64,000 nucleotides of DNA from Cupriavidus oxalaticus (GTDB lineage: Bacteria > Pseudomonadota > Gammaproteobacteria > Burkholderiales > Burkholderiaceae): positions 3,821,447 through 3,885,446 of the forward strand of contig NZ_CP069812.1 in assembly GCF_016894385.1 (NCBI RefSeq), in the 5' to 3' direction. Under the pieces are notes generated by a model that saw only the letters and a program-made list of their open reading frames with translations, was not told the origin of the DNA and did not search any database. Positions 15,487 to 23,668 of the stretch are shown one piece after another. Position 1 is the stretch's first letter, and each line of letters starts with the position of its first letter. A program made the position numbers and the translations under genes.

Positions 15487-15505
15487 TTAAATGATAATAA
15501 TTCTC
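15487..15505. promoter_or_regulatory. Fur box upstream of TonB receptor operon
   Basis: TTAAATGATAATAATTCTC matches 14 of 19 positions of the classical Fur consensus GATAATGATAATCATTATC. It stands in an A/T-rich island about 120 bp before the receptor start. This implies iron-repressed expression of the whole downstream operon. Confidence 0.75.
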
Positions 15506-15624
15506 GTTAACTAAAACGGCGTCACCCGCGGCCATGCGCCGGCCGGGCAGCGCCTCTACGCGAGCCAGCCACCCTGTCACGGTTTTCCGCCAGCCAAGCG
15601 TCCGATTTCTTCTGGGGAGAATCC

Positions 15625-17904
15625 ATGAAACGTCGCTGCCTGGCGCACCTGCGCGCCGCCGTCCGGGTCACGCCGATTGCCGCCGTCTGCGCGGCGCTGG
15701 GGTCGCCGGCCTTCGCCGCCGAGGGCGATCGCCAGACCGCCACGCTTGCCTCGCTCAATGAAGTGGTGGTCACCGCCACCCGCACCGAGGAGCGGGCCGA
15801 TGCGGTGGCCTCTACCATCACCACGCGTGAAGCGCGCCAGATCGAGCGCGCGCAGCCGGTCGACGAGACCGGCCTGTTCGCCGACGAGCCCGATATCGAC
15901 GTGCCGCGCGACCGCCGCCGCTTTGGCGCGGGCAGCATCAATATCCGCGGCATCGAGGACAACCGCGTGCTGCAGATGGTCGACGGCGTGCGCCTGCCGG
16001 ACTTCTTCAATGGCGGCGGGCCGTCGAACATCTCCAGCTCGACGCGCGATGCGCCGGAGTTTTCGTTCCTGAAGCGCGTGGAAGTGCTGCGCGGGCCGGC
16101 GTCGAGCCTGTATGGCTCGGATGCGATCGGCGGCGTGGTGGCCTATGCGACCAAGGATCCGGCCGACCTGACGCAAGGCCGCAAGGCCGGCGGCGAGGCC
16201 GGGCTGAACTGGAACGGCATCGACAATGGCTTCGGCCAGACCGCAGGCGTGGCCGGCGGCGGCGACACCCTCCAGGGCCTCTTCATGTATGCGAACCGCA
16301 ACGCGCATGAAATGAAGAACATGGGCACCGATGACTCCAACTCGGTCAACCGCACCAGGCCCAATCCGCAGGACGTGCGCACGCAGGCATGGCTGGGCAA
16401 GCTCCTGCTCAACGCCACGCCCGGGCACAAGTTCAAGTTCACGTACGAGCACCGCGACGGCAATACCGACACCGACCTGCTGCGGTTATCCACAGCCCTG
16501 CCGCGCGTCACCGCCGCCAGCGGCAATGAAGACCTGAGCCGCGACCGCGTCAGCCTGGACTACGCGTGGCAGCCCGCCAGCCGCGTGCTGGATCGCCTGG
16601 CCGCGCAGGTTTACTACCAGGAGTCGGAGACCTCCACGCTGACCAACCAGGTGCGCAGCAACACCAGCACCGGCTGCTCGGCCACCACGCGCGGCACCAG
16701 CCTGTGCAATGTCGCGCTGGGCTTTGCCTTCAGGCAGGAGCAGACCGGCTTCAACTTGCAGGGCGACAAGTCCTTCGCCACCGGCAGCGTCGGGCACCGG
16801 CTGATCGGCGGCATGGATTTCATGCGTACGCGCACGTCCGAATCGCGCGACGCCACCGTGGTCAACCTGACCACCGGCACCACCACCAGGTCGCTCGCCG
16901 GCGAGAACTTCCCGGTGCATGACTTCCCCACCGGCGAGACGCGCCAGACCGGCGTGTTCGCGCAGGACGAGATGCGCTTCTTCGATGGCCGCTTCACGCT
17001 GACGCCGGGGCTGCGCTTCGACCACTACTCGCTGTCGCCGGATGGCGACGACCTGGTCTACACCAGTGCGGGCGGCCGCCCGGCGGTCAGCAAGAGCGAT
17101 TCGCATGTGTCGCCGAAGCTGTCGGCGCTGTGGCAGGCGACCGACCACGTCAACCTGTGGGCGCAATACGTGTTCGGCTACCGCGCGCCCAATTACCAGG
17201 AAGTCAATGGCAGCTTCCGCAACCCGGTGCAGGGCTATGGCGCCGCGCCCAATGCCGACCTGAACCCGGAGAAGAGCCGCTCGTTCGAGGTGGGCGCGCG
17301 TTATACCAGCGACAAGGTGCAGACCAGCGTGGCGCTGTTCGACAACCGCTACCGCGACTTCATCGAACAGGTGCAGCTGACCTGCCCGTCCGACCCCGCG
17401 TGCCTGCCCGGCCTGCGCGCGACCTACCAGTACCGCAACCAGACCAGCGTGCGCATCTACGGCGCCGAGTGGCGCGGCGTGTGGCGCTTCCTGCCGCAAT
17501 GGCGCATCGACGGCGCGGTCGCGTACGCGCACGGCACCAATGAGCAGACCGACCAGCCGCTCAACAGCGTATCGCCGCTGCGCGCGAGCGCGGGGCTGAC
17601 CTGGGAGCGCGTGCCGGGCCAGGGCGCCGCGATCCGCTGGCGCGGCGCGCGCCCGGTCACGCGTACCGACGACACGTCGTTCACCTACTTCAAGCCCGCC
17701 GGCTACGGCGTGGTCGACCTGCAGGCGTGGTGGCGCTTCAACCGCTATGTCAGCCTGGCGCTGTCGGTGAACAACCTGTTCGACAAGAAGTACTGGCTGT
17801 GGGGCGACGTGCGCCAGACCGGCGTCTCGGCCACCGAGCCCGGGGTGGACTTCTACACGCAGCCGGGCCGCACCTTCGCCGCCAGCCTGAAGCTGTCGTT
17901 CTGA
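15625..17904 (+). CDS. TonB-dependent receptor, heme/hemoglobin-receptor-like
   Basis: This 759-residue outer-membrane receptor has a signal peptide (1 to about 31, ending SPAFA), a TonB box and plug start at LNEVVVTATRTEER (about 44-57), the plug (NIRGIEDNRVLQMVDGVR, EVLRGPASSLYGSDAIGGVV), a 22-strand barrel and a C-terminal phenylalanine. The region YRAPNYQE ... PNADLNPEKS resembles the FRAP/NPNL signature of heme receptors. The histidine usually found between those motifs in ShuA/HemR-type receptors is missing, so ligand chemistry may differ. Two cysteine pairs lie in barrel loops. GGGGAGA precedes the ATG. It is first gene of the operon, 26 bp before the CobN-like gene, and sits behind a Fur box. 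Confidence 0.9.
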   Translation: MKRRCLAHLRAAVRVTPIAAVCAALGSPAFAAEGDRQTATLASLNEVVVTATRTEERADAVASTITTREARQIERAQPVDETGLFADEPDIDVPRDRRRFGAGSINIRGIEDNRVLQMVDGVRLPDFFNGGGPSNISSSTRDAPEFSFLKRVEVLRGPASSLYGSDAIGGVVAYATKDPADLTQGRKAGGEAGLNWNGIDNGFGQTAGVAGGGDTLQGLFMYANRNAHEMKNMGTDDSNSVNRTRPNPQDVRTQAWLGKLLLNATPGHKFKFTYEHRDGNTDTDLLRLSTALPRVTAASGNEDLSRDRVSLDYAWQPASRVLDRLAAQVYYQESETSTLTNQVRSNTSTGCSATTRGTSLCNVALGFAFRQEQTGFNLQGDKSFATGSVGHRLIGGMDFMRTRTSESRDATVVNLTTGTTTRSLAGENFPVHDFPTGETRQTGVFAQDEMRFFDGRFTLTPGLRFDHYSLSPDGDDLVYTSAGGRPAVSKSDSHVSPKLSALWQATDHVNLWAQYVFGYRAPNYQEVNGSFRNPVQGYGAAPNADLNPEKSRSFEVGARYTSDKVQTSVALFDNRYRDFIEQVQLTCPSDPACLPGLRATYQYRNQTSVRIYGAEWRGVWRFLPQWRIDGAVAYAHGTNEQTDQPLNSVSPLRASAGLTWERVPGQGAAIRWRGARPVTRTDDTSFTYFKPAGYGVVDLQAWWRFNRYVSLALSVNNLFDKKYWLWGDVRQTGVSATEPGVDFYTQPGRTFAASLKLSF

Positions 17905-17930
17905 GCCGCATGGGCTCAAGGAGGTATCGC

Positions 17931-20900
17931 ATGTCCCCACAAAACATAACCAGCCGCTGCCTCCGGGTGCTGCTGTGCCTGCTGATGTGGATGGGCGCGG
18001 CACACGCTGCAATGCCGCGCATCGCCATCCTGACCAGTTCGCCGGTGCCGGCCGGCAAGTTCGGGCCGCTGCGCGAGCTGGCGCAGGCGCAGGGCATGGC
18101 GCTCGATGCGCAGTACCTGGAGCGCATGCCGGCGCAGGACGTCGCGCCGTTCATCAACGGTGCCGACCTGCTGGTCGTCGATGCGCCGCGCGACCATATC
18201 GTCACCGCGATGCTGCAACGGCTGGGACCGTTGTGGAGCGAGGCGCGCGTACCGCGCGTGCTGATCGCCACCGACCGCTACGAAGCGCATGGCGTCGACG
18301 ACAGGCTCGCCGCGCAATTGCATGCGTACTACGTCAACGGCGGCCGCGGCAACTTCGGCGCGATGATGCGCACGCTCGCGGCACAACAGTTCCGCCTGCG
18401 CGGTGATGACGGCATTCCGGCACCCGTGGTGTTTCCCAAGGCCGCCTATTACCACCCGAAGCTGGCGGGCGTGATCACCACGTCTGCGCAGGAAGCGCTG
18501 GCCGCATCGGGCAACAGCGGCCCGGTGATCGGCATCGCCATCCACCAGGCCTATGTGTCGGGCCTCGACAGTGCCTTGATCGACGACCTGATTGGTCGCC
18601 TCGAAGCACGCCATGCGCGCGTGCTCACGTTCTACGGCCCGGTGATGGATGCCGACGGCATCACGCGCATGGCGATGCCCGATGGCAAGCGGCTGGTCGA
18701 TGTGCTGATCAATGGCCAGATCATGCTGAACCCGCAGGGGCGCAAGGCCGAGTTCGAAAAACTCGATGTACCGGTGACGCAGGTCATGCCCTACCGCAAG
18801 GGCGATGCGCAGGCGTGGCAGGATGACCCGCACGGCATCAGCCTGACCGATACGCCGTTCTACCTGGTGCAGCCCGAACTGGCCGGCGTGATCGATCCCA
18901 TCCTGGCCGCCGCCACGGACAAGGGCGACGGGGCCATCGTCGGCCTGCCGGCGCAGCTCGACGCGGTCGCGGACAAGGCGCTGGCATTGGCGCGGCTGCG
19001 TCACCTGCCCAACGCCGACAAGCGCGTGGCGATCCTGTACTACAACTACCCGGCCGGCGAGAAGAACCTGTCGGCGTCTTTCCTGAACCTGCCCAGGAGC
19101 CTGGCCAGCACGCTTGCCGCGCTGCGCGCCGCGGGCTACACCACCGAAGCCGCTGACGAAGCCCGCTTGCAACGCGACCTCGGTGCCTTGCTCGCGCCGT
19201 TCTATCGCAGCGGCAAGCTGGAGCCATTGCTCGATGCCGGCCTCGCGGTGTGGATGCCGATGTCGCAATACCGCCGCTGGCATGACGCGCAGCCGGCAGC
19301 GTTCCGCGCGGCAGTCGCGCAGCGCTGGGGCAAACCGGAGCAATCGGCGATGGCGACCACGCGCAACGGCGAGGCCGGTTTCGTGATCCCGCGCCTGCAG
19401 CTCGGCAACGTGGCGCTGATGCCGGTGCCGCCGCGCGGCGAGCGCAATGAATCGGACGAGAAGGCGCTGTACCACTCCACCACCACGCCGCTGAACCACT
19501 TCTACATGGCGGCCTACCTGTGGGCGCGCGAGAATCGCGAGGCGCTGGTGCACTACGGCACGCACGGCACGCAGGAATGGACGCCGGGCAAGGAGCGCGG
19601 CCTGTCTGTCACCGACCAGCCCTACCTGGTGCTGGGCAGCGTGCCGGTGATCTATCCGTACATCGTCGACGACGTCGGCGAAGCGATCCAGGCCAAGCGG
19701 CGCGGCCGCGCGGTGATCGTCAGCCACCAGACGCCGCCGTTCCGTCCAGCTGGCCTGCATACCGACCTGGTAGCGCTGCATGACCAGCTGCATGCGTACC
19801 TGCAGCAGGACGAAGGCGCGGTGAAGGACACCATCCGCCAGCAGATCCTGTCGCGCAGCGCGTCGATGCACGTGTTCGAAGACATGGGCTGGACCGCCGC
19901 GCGTGCGCGTGCGGACTTCACCGGCTACCTGGATGCGCTGCATATCCATCTGCATGAACTCGGCGGCGCGCTGCAGCCCTATGGCCTGCACACGTTCGGG
20001 CAGTCGCAGGACGATGGCTTGCGGCTTTACACAACCATGGCGATGCTGGGCAAGGACTGGCTCAAGCGCGTCTTTCCCGAGGAGCCGGAGGAACTGTTCG
20101 CGGTCGACTACGCGCAGCTCGCGCAGACGCAGCCCTATGCGATGGTGCGGCGCTACGTGGCCGAGGGCGCATCGCTGGATGCACTGGGCGATCCGCGCCA
20201 GCGCGAAGACATGCAGCGCGCGCGGCAGCTCTATGCCAGCCTCGATGCGTCGCCGGAGAACGCCGGCCTGCTGACCGCGCTGGCTGGCCGCCACCTGCAA
20301 TCGGGAACGGGCGGCGATCCGGTGCGCAATCCCGACACGCTGCCGACCGGCCGCAACCTGTACGGCTTCGATCCCTCCAAGGTGCCGAGCCGCGCAGCGT
20401 GGAAAGCAGGCCAGGCCGCCGCCGAGGCGATGATCGCCGACTGGCGCAAGCGCCACGGCCGCTACCCCGGCAAGCTGGCGTTCTCGCTGTGGAGCGTGGA
20501 AACCATGCGCCACCAGGGCATGCTCGAAGCGCAGGCGATGGCGGTGCTGGGCGTACGGCCGAAGTGGGACGACGGCGGGCGCGTGGTCGGGGTCGAGCCG
20601 ATTTCCGCGGCCGAACTGGGGCGTCCGCGCGTGGACGTGGTGCTGTCCGCCACCGGCCTTTATCGCGATCACTTCCCCAACCTGATGAAGTGGCTGGCCG
20701 AGGCCGTGAAGCTTGCCGCCGCGCAGCCGGAAGCGGACAACGTCGTTGCCGCCAACACGCGCGCGGTGCGCGAACGGCTGGCGCAGCTGAACGTCCCTGC
20801 CGAGCGGCTCGATGCGCTGGCGGTGACGCGCATCTTCGCCAGCGAATCGGGCAACTATGGCACCGGCCTGAACGATGCGGCCATGGCGACCGATACCTTC

Positions 20901-21926
20901 GGCAGCGGCCGCGAGGCCGACGCCAGGCTGGCCACGCTGTACCTCGCGCGCATGCAGTACGCCTACGGCCCCGATGAACGGCACTGGGGCGAGGCGCTGC
21001 CGCAGGGCAACCTGTATGCCGAGAACCTCAAGGGCGTCGACGGCGCGCTGCTGGCGCGCAGCTCCAACCTGTACGGCATGCTGACCACCGACGACCCGTT
21101 CCAGTACCTGGGCGGCATCGGCCTCGCGGTGCGGCACCTGACCGGCAAGGCGCCCGAGCTGCTGATCTCGAACCTGCGCGATGCCGGCAACGCGCGCACC
21201 GAGACGGCGGCGCGTTTCCTCGCCAGCGAACTGCGCACGCGCTACTTCCATCCCGGCTGGATCGAGGGCATGAAGGCGGAGGGCTACAGCGGCGCGCTGA
21301 ACGTGCTCGACACCGTCAACAACTTCTGGGGCTGGACCGCGGTCTCGCCCGAGATCGTGCGCGACGACCAGTGGACCGAGTTCGCCGAGGTCTATGTCAA
21401 CGACAAGCACAAGCTCGGCCTGAACGAGTGGTTCGAAAAGAACGCGCCGCAGGCCCAGGCACAGGTGATCGAGCGCATGCTCGAAGCCGCGCGCAAGGGC
21501 TACTGGAAGGCCGACGACAAGCTGCTGAAGACGCTGGCGCAGCGCTATGAAGACCTGGCGCGGCGGCACGACATCGTCAGCAGCAACCGCGCGTTCAACC
21601 AGTACCTGAAGCAGCAGGCGCAGGCCGCCGCGCCGGGCTACGGGTTGCAGCCGCCTGCCGCGGCACCCCGTCCGGCACCGGCGCCAACGCCGCCGAAGCC
21701 TGCCGCAGCGGCACCCACGCCCCCGCCCGCACCCGCGCCGAACCAGGCGCAGCCCGTGCAAGGCATGCAGCTGGTGGAACGCAAGCCACCTGCCGCGGAA
21801 ATCGTGCCGGTGCTGTCGTGGCTGGCCGGCGGCATCGCGCTGGCGGCCGCCATCGTGGGCGGCGCGCTCAGCGCGCGGCGGCGCCAGGTCGATGCCGGCG
21901 GCAGCTGGCTGCCCGGACGGCGCTGA
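17931..21926 (+). CDS. Secreted, membrane-anchored CobN-like chelatase (HmuS-like candidate)
   Basis: A 1331-residue CobN/BchH-superfamily protein. It differs from cytosolic CobN by an N-terminal signal peptide (1 to about 26, LLCLLMWMGAAHA) and a C-terminal proline/alanine linker (about 1235-1285) followed by one membrane helix (about 1290-1313) and a short basic tail. The chelatase body should therefore face the periplasm. Conserved CobN features are HYGTHGTQEWTPGKERG (residues 541-557, with H541, H545 and E549 as likely metal or tetrapyrrole ligands), YPYIVDDVGEAIQAKRR, IFASESGNYGTGL and NNFWGW. AAGGAGG precedes the ATG. No CobS, CobT or corrin genes are nearby. With a heme-type receptor upstream and a Fur box, metal removal from imported heme is more likely than cobalt insertion. 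The direction of reaction is inferred. Confidence 0.88.
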   Translation: MSPQNITSRCLRVLLCLLMWMGAAHAAMPRIAILTSSPVPAGKFGPLRELAQAQGMALDAQYLERMPAQDVAPFINGADLLVVDAPRDHIVTAMLQRLGPLWSEARVPRVLIATDRYEAHGVDDRLAAQLHAYYVNGGRGNFGAMMRTLAAQQFRLRGDDGIPAPVVFPKAAYYHPKLAGVITTSAQEALAASGNSGPVIGIAIHQAYVSGLDSALIDDLIGRLEARHARVLTFYGPVMDADGITRMAMPDGKRLVDVLINGQIMLNPQGRKAEFEKLDVPVTQVMPYRKGDAQAWQDDPHGISLTDTPFYLVQPELAGVIDPILAAATDKGDGAIVGLPAQLDAVADKALALARLRHLPNADKRVAILYYNYPAGEKNLSASFLNLPRSLASTLAALRAAGYTTEAADEARLQRDLGALLAPFYRSGKLEPLLDAGLAVWMPMSQYRRWHDAQPAAFRAAVAQRWGKPEQSAMATTRNGEAGFVIPRLQLGNVALMPVPPRGERNESDEKALYHSTTTPLNHFYMAAYLWARENREALVHYGTHGTQEWTPGKERGLSVTDQPYLVLGSVPVIYPYIVDDVGEAIQAKRRGRAVIVSHQTPPFRPAGLHTDLVALHDQLHAYLQQDEGAVKDTIRQQILSRSASMHVFEDMGWTAARARADFTGYLDALHIHLHELGGALQPYGLHTFGQSQDDGLRLYTTMAMLGKDWLKRVFPEEPEELFAVDYAQLAQTQPYAMVRRYVAEGASLDALGDPRQREDMQRARQLYASLDASPENAGLLTALAGRHLQSGTGGDPVRNPDTLPTGRNLYGFDPSKVPSRAAWKAGQAAAEAMIADWRKRHGRYPGKLAFSLWSVETMRHQGMLEAQAMAVLGVRPKWDDGGRVVGVEPISAAELGRPRVDVVLSATGLYRDHFPNLMKWLAEAVKLAAAQPEADNVVAANTRAVRERLAQLNVPAERLDALAVTRIFASESGNYGTGLNDAAMATDTFGSGREADARLATLYLARMQYAYGPDERHWGEALPQGNLYAENLKGVDGALLARSSNLYGMLTTDDPFQYLGGIGLAVRHLTGKAPELLISNLRDAGNARTETAARFLASELRTRYFHPGWIEGMKAEGYSGALNVLDTVNNFWGWTAVSPEIVRDDQWTEFAEVYVNDKHKLGLNEWFEKNAPQAQAQVIERMLEAARKGYWKADDKLLKTLAQRYEDLARRHDIVSSNRAFNQYLKQQAQAAAPGYGLQPPAAAPRPAPAPTPPKPAAAAPTPPPAPAPNQAQPVQGMQLVERKPPAAEIVPVLSWLAGGIALAAAIVGGALSARRRQVDAGGSWLPGRR

Positions 21927-21964
21927 AGCACGGAACATACCCATCGCATCCAACGAGACGAGAC

Positions 21965-22474
21965 ATGACACCCACCCTGCTTGAAACCCTGATGTACGAC
22001 GTCGGCCAGCTGTTCCTGATCCCGACACTCGCGCTGATCGCGCTGCTGTTCCTGTATGCCTTCTGGGCGCTGGGCGAATTCGCCATGCAAGCCTGGCTGC
22101 GCGCGCGCCATCCCATTGCCAGCGGCCGCGGCTACGTGCTGGTGGCGTGGGCGCGCAAACACAGGGTGGCCGATGCCGATGCCCTCGACGTCGCCGCGCA
22201 CCGCCTGCTGGAGCGTCCGCGCATCGCCACCCGCGTGGCGCCGATGCTGGGGCTGGTGGCCACCATGATCCCGATGGGTCCGGCGCTGAAGGGCCTGTCC
22301 GGTGGCAACCTGGCCAATGTGGGCGAGAATCTCACCATCGCGTTCTCCGCGGTGATCCTGGCGCTGATCGCAGCCAGCATTACCTTCTGGGTCGTCAATG
22401 TGCGCCGCCGCTGGCTGGCTGAAGAACTGGTGTGGCTGGGGCAGTCGAAGCCGCAATGGGAGCGCGACGAATGA
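21965..22474 (+). CDS. MotA/TolQ/ExbB-family proton channel protein
   Basis: A 169-residue inner-membrane protein with a membrane segment at about 18-38 and two more in the C-terminal half. The family core is APMLGLVATMIPMGPALKGL, then the NLANVGENLTIAFSAVILAL helix. ExbB-type proteins use the proton gradient to drive partner proteins. It lacks an adjacent ExbD; the next gene, a DUF2149 protein with one N-terminal helix, occupies the ExbD position and overlaps it by ATGA. The pair may energise the TonB receptor or act on the anchored chelatase. The start ATG at 21965 is chosen over an upstream frame that overlaps the CobN-like gene. Confidence 0.85.
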   Translation: MTPTLLETLMYDVGQLFLIPTLALIALLFLYAFWALGEFAMQAWLRARHPIASGRGYVLVAWARKHRVADADALDVAAHRLLERPRIATRVAPMLGLVATMIPMGPALKGLSGGNLANVGENLTIAFSAVILALIAASITFWVVNVRRRWLAEELVWLGQSKPQWERDE

Positions 22475-22818
22475 AATTCCTGGAAGAGAGCGAGGCCGAC
22501 GATCCGATCCTGTCGGTAGTGAACCTGATCGACGTGTTCCTGGTGGTGATCGCCGCGCTGCTGGTGGCGATTGCGCAGAATCCGGCGAATCCGTTCACGC
22601 ATGACGACGTGACGGTCATCACCAACCCGGGCAAGCCGAACATGGAAATCGTGTCGCGCCAGGGCGAGAAGGTGGTGCGCTACCAGGCCAGCGGCCAGGT
22701 CGGCAGCGGCGACGGCATCAAGGCCGGCGTGGCGTACCGGATGAAGGATGGGTCGATGGTATATGTGCCGGAGCAGCCTGCGCCGCAGGCAGCCGTCCCG
22801 ACGAACGAAACGAGATAA
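22471..22818 (+). CDS. DUF2149 family membrane protein (ExbD-like position)
   Basis: A 115-residue protein with a short cytoplasmic start (MKFLEESEADDPILSVVN), one membrane helix (about 19-36, LIDVFLVVIAALLVAIAQ) and a periplasmic tail. The layout, D in the LIDVFLVV helix and periplasmic C-terminus, resembles ExbD/TolR, although the family (DUF2149) has no proven function. Its start overlaps the ExbB-like stop (ATGA), so the two products are probably made in fixed ratio. DUF2149 proteins commonly accompany ExbB-like and CobN-like genes in metal/heme loci. Confidence 0.82.
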   Translation: MKFLEESEADDPILSVVNLIDVFLVVIAALLVAIAQNPANPFTHDDVTVITNPGKPNMEIVSRQGEKVVRYQASGQVGSGDGIKAGVAYRMKDGSMVYVPEQPAPQAAVPTNETR

Positions 22819-22831
22819 AGGAAACCGCGTG

Positions 22832-23668
22832 ATGTCATTCCGCTTGCGCGCAGCCACCATGCTGGCCGCAGCCGTTGCCTTGCTGGCCGCCGGCTGCGCT
22901 GCCCCGGGCCCCTCGCCGGCTACGGTCAGCGCCGGCTTTGCCGGCAAGCCCTACGTGCTGCTGGGCGAGGTCCATGACAATGCCGCCGGACAGCAGCAGC
23001 GGCTGGCCGCGCTGACGCGCGCGGTCGAGCAGGGCTGGCGTCCGGCCATCGCGATGGAGCAGTTCGACCGCGAACGGCAGGGCGATATCGACCGCGCCCG
23101 CCGCGAGCGGCCGAACGATGCCGATTACCTGATCGCGCAGGCCGGCGGCGGCGCCTGGCAGTGGCCGCTGTACCGGCCGGTGGTGGCGCTGGCGCTGCAG
23201 TATGACCTGCCGCTGGTCGCGGCCAACCTGTCGCGCGCGGATGCGGGCAAGATCGTTCGCGGCGGCCTGGACGGGCTGTTCCCCGCGGACGAGCGGCAGA
23301 AGCTTGGCCTGACCGGTGCGTTGCCGCCTGACCTGGTGGCGGCGCAGACCGCGGTGCTTGACCGCGGGCATTGCGGCAATTTCCCGAAGGCGATGCTGCC
23401 CGGCATGCTGGCGGCACAGGCGGCGCGCGACGCGGTGATGGCACAGGCGCTGCGGCCTCACGCGCAGCGCGGCGCGGTGCTGATTGCAGGCAACGGGCAT
23501 GTGCGGCGCGATGTGGGGGTGCCGCGCTGGCTGCCGGGCGAGGCCGGCAAGGTCGTCAGCGTGGGCTATGTGGAGAGCGCCGCGGCGCACGGCGAGTTCG
23601 ACATGGCGGTGGTGGTGCCGGCGGTGGCGCGCAAGGATCCTTGCTTGCAGGCGAAGCCGGCGGGGTGA
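22832..23668 (+). CDS. ChaN-like (DUF399) heme-binding-type lipoprotein
   Basis: A 278-residue lipoprotein precursor. The signal peptide ends in a lipobox LLAAGC, so the mature protein starts at that cysteine and is membrane-tethered. ChaN-family marks are YVLLGEVHDN (start of the domain), IAMEQFDRERQ, and GNGHVRRDVGVP near the C-terminus. Campylobacter ChaN is an iron-regulated lipoprotein that binds heme as a dimer, so this gene fits a heme-handling operon. AAGGA precedes the chosen ATG; a GTG three bases upstream is an alternative. It ends the operon and is followed by family A repeats. Confidence 0.88.
   Translation: MSFRLRAATMLAAAVALLAAGCAAPGPSPATVSAGFAGKPYVLLGEVHDNAAGQQQRLAALTRAVEQGWRPAIAMEQFDRERQGDIDRARRERPNDADYLIAQAGGGAWQWPLYRPVVALALQYDLPLVAANLSRADAGKIVRGGLDGLFPADERQKLGLTGALPPDLVAAQTAVLDRGHCGNFPKAMLPGMLAAQAARDAVMAQALRPHAQRGAVLIAGNGHVRRDVGVPRWLPGEAGKVVSVGYVESAAAHGEFDMAVVVPAVARKDPCLQAKPAG

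Follow-up and report, generated by a model that had tools for sequence, protein, structure and literature searches.

A five-gene operon in the stretch of Cupriavidus oxalaticus DNA analysed here (64,000 nucleotides of contig NZ_CP069812.1, hereafter the window) encodes, all on the plus strand and in this order, a TonB-dependent receptor, a CobN-like chelatase, an ExbB-like protein, a DUF2149 protein and a ChaN-family lipoprotein, with intergenic gaps of 26, 38, -4 and 13 bases. We proposed, with slightly better than even confidence, that this operon is a Fur-controlled system for scavenging a metallo-tetrapyrrole, most likely heme, and that ExbB and DUF2149 form a motor serving the chelatase; the operon probably takes up heme, the metal of which would be removed before the cytoplasm is reached. 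An initial annotation of the window had named these parts, and Pfam and NCBIfam profiles located all of them on the plus strand, with overlaps or short gaps as claimed. Its suggestion of metallo-tetrapyrrole import followed by periplasmic metal removal gained support from the receptor class, the Fur-like site and the exported, anchored chelatase; it had left open whether the motor powers the chelatase or the receptor, and the comparative data presented below favour the chelatase. The same five-gene order was found again in Cupriavidus relatives; thus, the arrangement is not a matter of chance.

The window DUF2149 protein (115 aa, 22471..22818, plus strand; PF09919, 95 bits) is the sole copy in its genome and may have an ExbD-like layout, with an Asp in the membrane helix (Asp21) that was invariant in 43 of 43 aligned sequences; its best start, 22471, overlaps the ExbB stop, and a Foldseek search gave no match at E 0.001. 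The preceding ExbB/TolQ-like proton-channel protein (169 aa, 21965..22474, plus strand, with 21965 as the better start) was recognised by alignment and by PF01618, at 24.9 bits barely above the cut-off of 22.9. Of 398 Pseudomonadota genomes, 17 encode DUF2149, and without exception these contain PF02514, the chelatase family, which itself was matched in at least 134 of the 398 (PF02514 counts are lower bounds, some candidates being unscored). A search of the class detected DUF2149 in 21 of 369 genomes, 18 of them new; 16 of these 18, the two weakest (G670 and G676) being left out, together with all 17 further places from the phylum search provided 33 DUF2149-selected loci, window excluded. A CobN-like gene was present at 33/33 of these loci and lay within 3 kb of DUF2149 at 32, and ExbB lay no more than 300 bases from DUF2149 at 32. 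By comparison, a TonB receptor was found within 3 kb at 15 loci, within 5 kb at 20 and anywhere in the stretch at 26; none was seen in the other seven stretches, two of them short contigs. Window-like operons, in which the chelatase gene stands between receptor and motor, are undercounted at 3 kb. AAA/VWA chelatase-motor genes were found at 0 of the 33 loci versus 5 of 20 comparison loci; these 5 include L041 (checked by Pfam), L042, L044 and L045, but not L043, of the five loci in the window's class that have a cytosolic CobN. Taken together, these counts suggest that ExbB/DUF2149 tracks the anchored chelatase rather than the receptor.

Archaeal loci pointed in the same direction. A scan of named genomes with the anchored chelatase of L024 yielded 53 loci, including three Methanothrix contigs, two of which were long enough. 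At the archaeal loci L109 and L111, which carry one species name, chelatase, ExbB and DUF2149 occur together, and no receptor was found in about 20 kb at either. Archaea such as Methanothrix have no outer membrane; thus, a TonB receptor is an unlikely client of the motor in these archaea. Among 14 control genomes, DUF2149 matched only in Methanosarcina acetivorans, which has PF02514 too. In the available text of PMC9425974, DUF2149 of methanogens is listed as linked to TolQ.

The partnership was further addressed in 60 genomes assigned to the window's genus in the search (Cupriavidus hereafter, for genomes and loci alike), in which DUF2149 was present in 36 and PF02514 in 35, with both in 35 and neither in 24; the single case of DUF2149 alone, G772, is a fragment. 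Nine genomes (G797, G754, G771, G770, G765, G794, G779, G780 and G750) contained ExbB, DUF2149 and ChaN at the heme locus with no local chelatase, and the receptor was also missing at eight of these nine loci, receptors elsewhere in the genome not having been searched for. Each of the nine has a single DUF2149, and all nine encode a second CobN-like protein elsewhere plus a cytosolic CobN, the two being on one contig in eight genomes and on two contigs in G780. This second chelatase is anchored in eight of the nine, and in G780 it runs off the contig before its end; neither ExbB nor DUF2149 was found in the 10-19.5 kb around any of them (14 kb in G780). At L041 (6444-16211), where the cytosolic CobN cluster includes ChlI-like and VWA genes, and at L144-L147, we observed a cytosolic CobN with a further CobN-like protein as its neighbour; the latter is anchored and in some clusters has an ExbB-DUF2149 motor of its own, as at L144-L147, and in others has none. 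Apparent operon decay was observed at L171, L164 and L149, from three Cupriavidus genomes, with the chelatase broken or not found, ChaN still present and DUF2149 whole or broken; G778 contains fragments of chelatase and DUF2149.

The chelatase (1331 aa, 17931..21926, plus strand; PF02514, 980 bits) has an N-terminal hydrophobic stretch and a C-terminal membrane segment, both seen with a hydropathy script, in line with the signal peptide and anchor of the initial annotation. Its C-terminal membrane segment (residues 1291-1309, 21801..21857, plus strand) scored 2.23, relative to an anchor threshold of 1.3 that was set after the values had been seen (lowest anchored 1.32, highest other 1.16). Such a segment was present in 17 of 17 chelatases from DUF2149 loci and in the window protein, versus 0 of 20 cytosolic CobN/BchH proteins. 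The threshold was passed by 204 of the 234 CobN-like proteins examined, including L041b, which has no local motor, whereas the homologues P0053, P0071 and P0120 fell below it. In a Pro/Ala-rich linker before the anchor lies the sequence VQGMQL (residues 1276-1281, 21756..21773, plus strand; motif scan), of the class [VI]xGxx[ML]. With one group of 13 set apart, this motif was found 10-26 residues before the anchor in 182 of 191 anchored proteins, many of them close relatives of one another, compared with 1.6% of shuffled segments (154 of 9550). Both Methanothrix chelatases carry it (VTGMVM and VSGFVM); for HmuS, the alignment stops at residue 1414 of 1463, short of the C-terminal tail. A short motif of this kind before a membrane helix recalls the D-box of TonB, a resemblance at the level of sequence only. 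Across 74 loci carrying chelatase and DUF2149 alike, the segment of DUF2149 bounded by the membrane Asp and GxxY measured 65-73 residues at loci with the motif (n=59) versus 45-70 at loci without it (n=15); the shorter form may represent one or few events, because 12 of the 15 belong to one group. The motif-less group of 13 loci, defined by us and with 7 of 13 placed in trees, had a B12 riboswitch in most of its stretches, together with a diverged, mostly shortened DUF2149.

The tree of CobN-like proteins that the initial annotation had called for, with BchH, CobN and HmuS, was built twice, and both trees placed the window protein outside the true cobaltochelatases, contrary to the placement that the annotation had named as refuting its reading. 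In a tree of 58 proteins, a branch with SH-aLRT 98 parted the 20 cytosolic CobN/BchH proteins from 37 others and HmuS; in a tree of 31 proteins, to which archaeal and desulfobacterial members had been added, the cytosolic ones separated again (SH-aLRT 98), and four riboswitch-group proteins stood beside cytosolic CobN with weak support (86). The deep branching order is unsure, because both trees were quick and uneven in composition and the 58-protein tree has long branches. The window chelatase formed its own branch on the anchored side and was not grouped with HmuS. It keeps the active-site loop HFG(T/A)HG of HmuS as HYGTHG, with His538, and lacks the methionine-rich insertion of HmuS domain IV, where window residues 657-772 (4 Met) face HmuS 649-928; its active-site motif DDPFQYLGG is closer to cytosolic CobN than to HmuS. 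The likeness to HmuS drawn in the initial annotation thus stood for an anchored CobN-like protein with His538 kept, and not for an orthologue, which was ruled out by the loss of Met79, His254, His1209 and Glu1212 and by the separate branch. We assigned the window protein to a separate anchored subfamily of CobN-like chelatases. At another locus of the genus (L132, 5575-9771, genome G759), we observed a CobN-like protein that groups with the HmuS of the Protein Data Bank (SH-aLRT 100), has both HGR and LDHVYEFMGG, and adjoins a TonB receptor of divergent sequence as well as ExbB and DUF2149; it appears to be a genuine betaproteobacterial HmuS.

The receptor (759 aa, 15625..17904, plus strand; TIGR01786, TIGR01785, PF07715 and PF00593) exceeded the curated cut-offs of the heme/hemoglobin class (TIGR01786, 425.5 vs 323.75 bits; TIGR01785, 416.2 vs 316.85), as the heme-receptor cut-offs were by the receptors of L026, L027 and L028, which are on the same branch as the window. 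Heme and hemoglobin receptors have a conserved His between their FRAP and NPNL boxes. In the window translation, read by eye, the boxes are YRAP and DLNP, and no His was found between them; the receptor with FRAP/NPNL-like motifs that had been announced is thus of the heme/hemoglobin class, with looser motifs. Heme would be its ligand, judging from this class. The ChaN-family lipoprotein (278 aa, 22832..23668, plus strand, start 22832) reached 148.3 bits with PF04187 (gathering cut-off 27.7) and has the lipobox LAAGC by eye. A literature search gave no paper supporting the earlier statement that ChaN of Campylobacter binds heme; a role in holding or passing a tetrapyrrole may be supposed from the family. 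As read by eye from translations, the operon is preceded by an RND pump gene and followed by a set of tricarboxylate-type transporter genes.

The Fur-like operator (15487..15511, plus strand) comprises two overlapping 19-base registers, scored against the Fur consensus: 15487-15505 matched at 14/19 positions, exactly as the initial annotation had it, and 15493-15511, 6 bases downstream, matched better, at 15/19. Among random 480-base stretches of the window, 1.3% reached at least 14/19 (n=3000; the draws include the real site). Fur-like matches of 13-15/19 were found at 22 of 23 receptor-bearing Cupriavidus loci, window included, approximately 100-185 bases upstream of the receptor (several gene starts, and hence distances, are estimates), and the core AATAATTC was common to all 22. 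The exception was L132, the locus with the HmuS-like chelatase (best match 10/19). At the eight Cupriavidus loci with only ExbB, DUF2149 and ChaN, the best matches were 10-14/19, and the core was absent from all eight. Outside the genus, L026 matched at 13, L027 and L028 at 14 and L120 at 18 of 19 positions, and L114, L115, L025, L033 and L119 at only 11-13/19. We consider the operon to be probably iron-controlled, with its Fur-like site kept across the genus.

The nature of the substrate was addressed through B12 riboswitches, none of which was found at cut-off in the window. RF00174 reached its cut-off in stretches L024, L035, L036, L037, L039, L040, L123 and L125-L129 and remained below it in L025-L031, L033, L034, L038, L114, L115 and L118-L122 (L032, a near copy of L033, L116, L117 and L124 were left out). 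A riboswitch expected at distant members of the window's subfamily was not found at cut-off in L025-L031, L033 or L034, and none was found at the second Cupriavidus chelatase in L160-L163, L041, L144, L145 or L147 (L181-L186 left out). In L035, RF00174 precedes a receptor gene approximately 7 kb from the chelatase. In L024 (2331-13734), we observed a B12-riboswitch cluster of a receptor, DUF2162, ExbB, DUF2149, a BtuF-CbiZ fusion, the anchored CobN-like protein, CbiK and another BtuF-like protein; CbiZ, CbiK or BtuR also accompanied some riboswitch-linked relatives. In the trees, the window's subfamily stood apart from the main riboswitch clade, although L035 fell near it. Because B12-riboswitch stretches also contain related chelatases that have an anchor and this same motor, the motor set is not heme-specific, and a single motor-chelatase unit seems to serve with different receptors and substrates. 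For the window itself, the receptor class, the Fur-like site and the family name of ChaN point to heme.

We proposed the following course of events. Heme would cross the outer membrane through the TonB receptor and may then be held or passed on by the ChaN lipoprotein. The exported chelatase, anchored by its C-terminal helix, would remove the metal in the periplasm, a reaction suggested by HmuS and the shared active-site His. The chelatase would be driven by ExbB and DUF2149, acting together as a stator-like proton motor to which the enzyme is coupled by its C-terminal helix and by the [VI]xGxx[ML] strand beside it, in the way that the D-box of TonB engages ExbD; this motor would replace the AAA+ motor (ChlI/ChlD, CobS/CobT) of cytosolic chelatases. 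The freed Fe2+ is assumed to enter through a separate transporter. More broadly, we give an even chance to a cross-domain family, in bacteria and archaea, of exported CobN-like enzymes driven by an ExbB-DUF2149 proton channel and not by AAA+ proteins, in which helix and D-box-like strand would tether the enzyme and metal would be pulled from or pushed into tetrapyrroles without ATP.

Several observations weigh against this proposal. According to the available text of PMC12583661, purified HmuS with NADH and no motor converts heme to protoporphyrin; thus, the reaction as such does not strictly require a motor. In the window protein, the HmuS motif LSLDHxxEFMGG (His1209, Glu1212) is not kept and reads LTTDDPFQYLGG, and Met79 and His254 (HGR) were not kept in two multiple alignments; Met79 was also replaced in a pairwise alignment, and although the alignment registers differ, none gives Met or HGR. 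A structure comparison, one that does not separate heme from cobalt, placed the predicted fold closer to CobN than to HmuS. The DUF2149 model, a helix followed by strands, is poor (pLDDT 62.6), and a profile comparison with ExbD gave a probability of 1.2%, no significant match. The juxtamembrane motif was absent from all 13 members of the anchored group L036-L040, L121-L123 and L125-L129, and was present in 4 of 30 non-anchored CobN-like proteins, by chance or truncation. A desulfobacterial-type anchored locus, L067, has ChlI/VWA-like genes in its stretch. The receptor, being present in 26 of the 33 DUF2149-selected stretches, is associated with the motor too. Among the Cupriavidus genomes, G797 keeps the receptor, and its ExbB and ChaN are split between frames; G785 has motor and ChaN intact and the chelatase only in pieces, and G748 a whole chelatase with ExbB in two pieces and the receptor in pieces. 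Finally, the nine motor-without-chelatase genomes are from one genus, are not independent and may stem from few events, and operon inertia is possible, because ChaN is kept with the motor too.

The most direct competing explanation is that ExbB/DUF2149 works as ExbB/ExbD does and supplies energy, via TonB, to the heme receptor, leaving the chelatase unpowered. HmuU/HmuV are coupled to the receptor HmuR in published models (PMC12583661, in a figure legend, and PMC10100974, in the available text of both), and a receptor is present in the window operon and in most DUF2149-selected stretches. We regard this explanation as unlikely, given that the pair occurs with no receptor in about 20 kb at L109 and L111, that eight Cupriavidus loci have the pair with neither receptor nor chelatase while the second CobN-like protein of those genomes is motorless, and that the chelatase accompanies DUF2149 more constantly than the receptor does (33/33 vs 26/33; 32 vs 15 within 3 kb, with 20 receptors within 5 kb).

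A different question is whether the substrate is another metallo-tetrapyrrole (a corrinoid, a siroheme-like compound, or a zinc or nickel porphyrin) or whether the enzyme inserts metal. The motor-bearing relatives in B12-riboswitch stretches, some with CbiZ, CbiK or BtuR, and the resemblance of DDPFQYLGG to cytosolic CobN rather than HmuS would fit either case; the heme receptor class, the Fur-like site, the lack of a riboswitch at cut-off in the window and the position of its subfamily apart from the main riboswitch clade, though L035 is near, make it rather improbable in our judgement. That the window protein is a cytosolic-type cobaltochelatase of B12 synthesis appears very improbable indeed, even though it exceeds the cut-off of the NCBIfam 'CobN' model NF004644 (1380.6 vs 1248 bits), named homologues among the 120 of 382 matches listed are mostly called CobN, and contig 1 of the genome has a CobS-like gene (527.6 bits, below the cut-off of 558.55). 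A cytosolic CobN was ruled out by the signal and anchor, by a search of the window's genome that found no CbiC homologue and was positive in 7 of 14 control genomes, and by the position outside the cytosolic clade (SH-aLRT 98). Moreover, no AAA/VWA partner gene lies beside the window chelatase, the CobS-like gene being on another contig with no CobN recognised by eye within 16 kb around it, and Cupriavidus genomes with a cytosolic CobN carry an anchored protein as well. The window chelatase is the only PF02514 protein of its genome, which consists of two contigs, and its nearest named homologues are from Cupriavidus. We also observed that the neighbours of the CobS-like AAA gene (L005, contig 1) resemble sulfoacetaldehyde acetyltransferase by eye, in a genome whose only CobN is exported.

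Should the chelatase prove to be the client of the motor, the accepted picture of the hmu system would have to be redrawn, with proton-gradient force acting on an enzyme and not only on outer-membrane transport; DUF2149 would gain a function, and the presence of ExbB-like and DUF2149 genes beside CobN-like genes in archaea without an outer membrane would be explained. Many database entries of this clade named 'cobaltochelatase CobN' would be misnamed, distorting predictions of B12 producers. The Cupriavidus genomes with a motor and no local chelatase offer a natural setting for a genetic test of the partnership. In open-licence papers, as far as their available text extends, we found no proposal that ExbB/DUF2149 drives the chelatase.

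Among known systems, as described in the available text of the papers cited, hmuYRSTUV of Bacteroidota is the closest, since it likewise brings together a receptor, an anchored periplasmic CobN-like chelatase, an ExbB-like protein and DUF2149 (PMC12583661, PMC13227078, PMC10100974); the hmu operon is iron-responsive (PMC10434189), and the window operon has a Fur-like site. HmuS is a demonstrated heme de-chelatase (PMC12583661), and the effect of HmuT, HmuU and HmuV on its activity is left open in PMC13227078. HmuV relatives have been counted in Proteobacteria and Methanomicrobia, and a B12-riboswitch operon described in Bacteroides fragilis (PMC10100974); thus, the wide spread of HmuV relatives was already known. 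The window operon differs in having counterparts of R, S, U and V only (S-like in the case of the chelatase), with no HmuY or HmuT in the operon, the rest of the genome not having been searched for them, in the added ChaN, and in a chelatase on a separate tree branch that keeps His538 and not Met79, His254, His1209, Glu1212 or the methionine-rich insertion. BtuS of B. fragilis (PMC6460266) and Methanosarcina barkeri (PMC10846266) is likewise CobN-like and presumed to have metalloporphyrins as substrates in a role other than B12 synthesis, and that of B. fragilis is predicted to be anchored like the window chelatase (PMC6460266); unlike in the window, no motor partner is named in the available text of either paper, and loss of btuS1 btuS2 in B. 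fragilis raised, and did not abolish, porphyrin release (PMC6460266). Whereas cytosolic CobN and ChlH work with AAA+ partners (CobST, ChlID), the window chelatase is exported and anchored, with no adjacent AAA/VWA gene. In comparison with TonB, the anchor is C-terminal, the motif precedes the helix and DUF2149 has no significant ExbD profile match, the likeness being one of sequence; as in TonB, a short motif lies just outside the membrane helix where a Pro-rich linker begins, and the proposed partner DUF2149, like ExbD, would be a small protein whose single helix carries an Asp within the membrane (PMC10907165).

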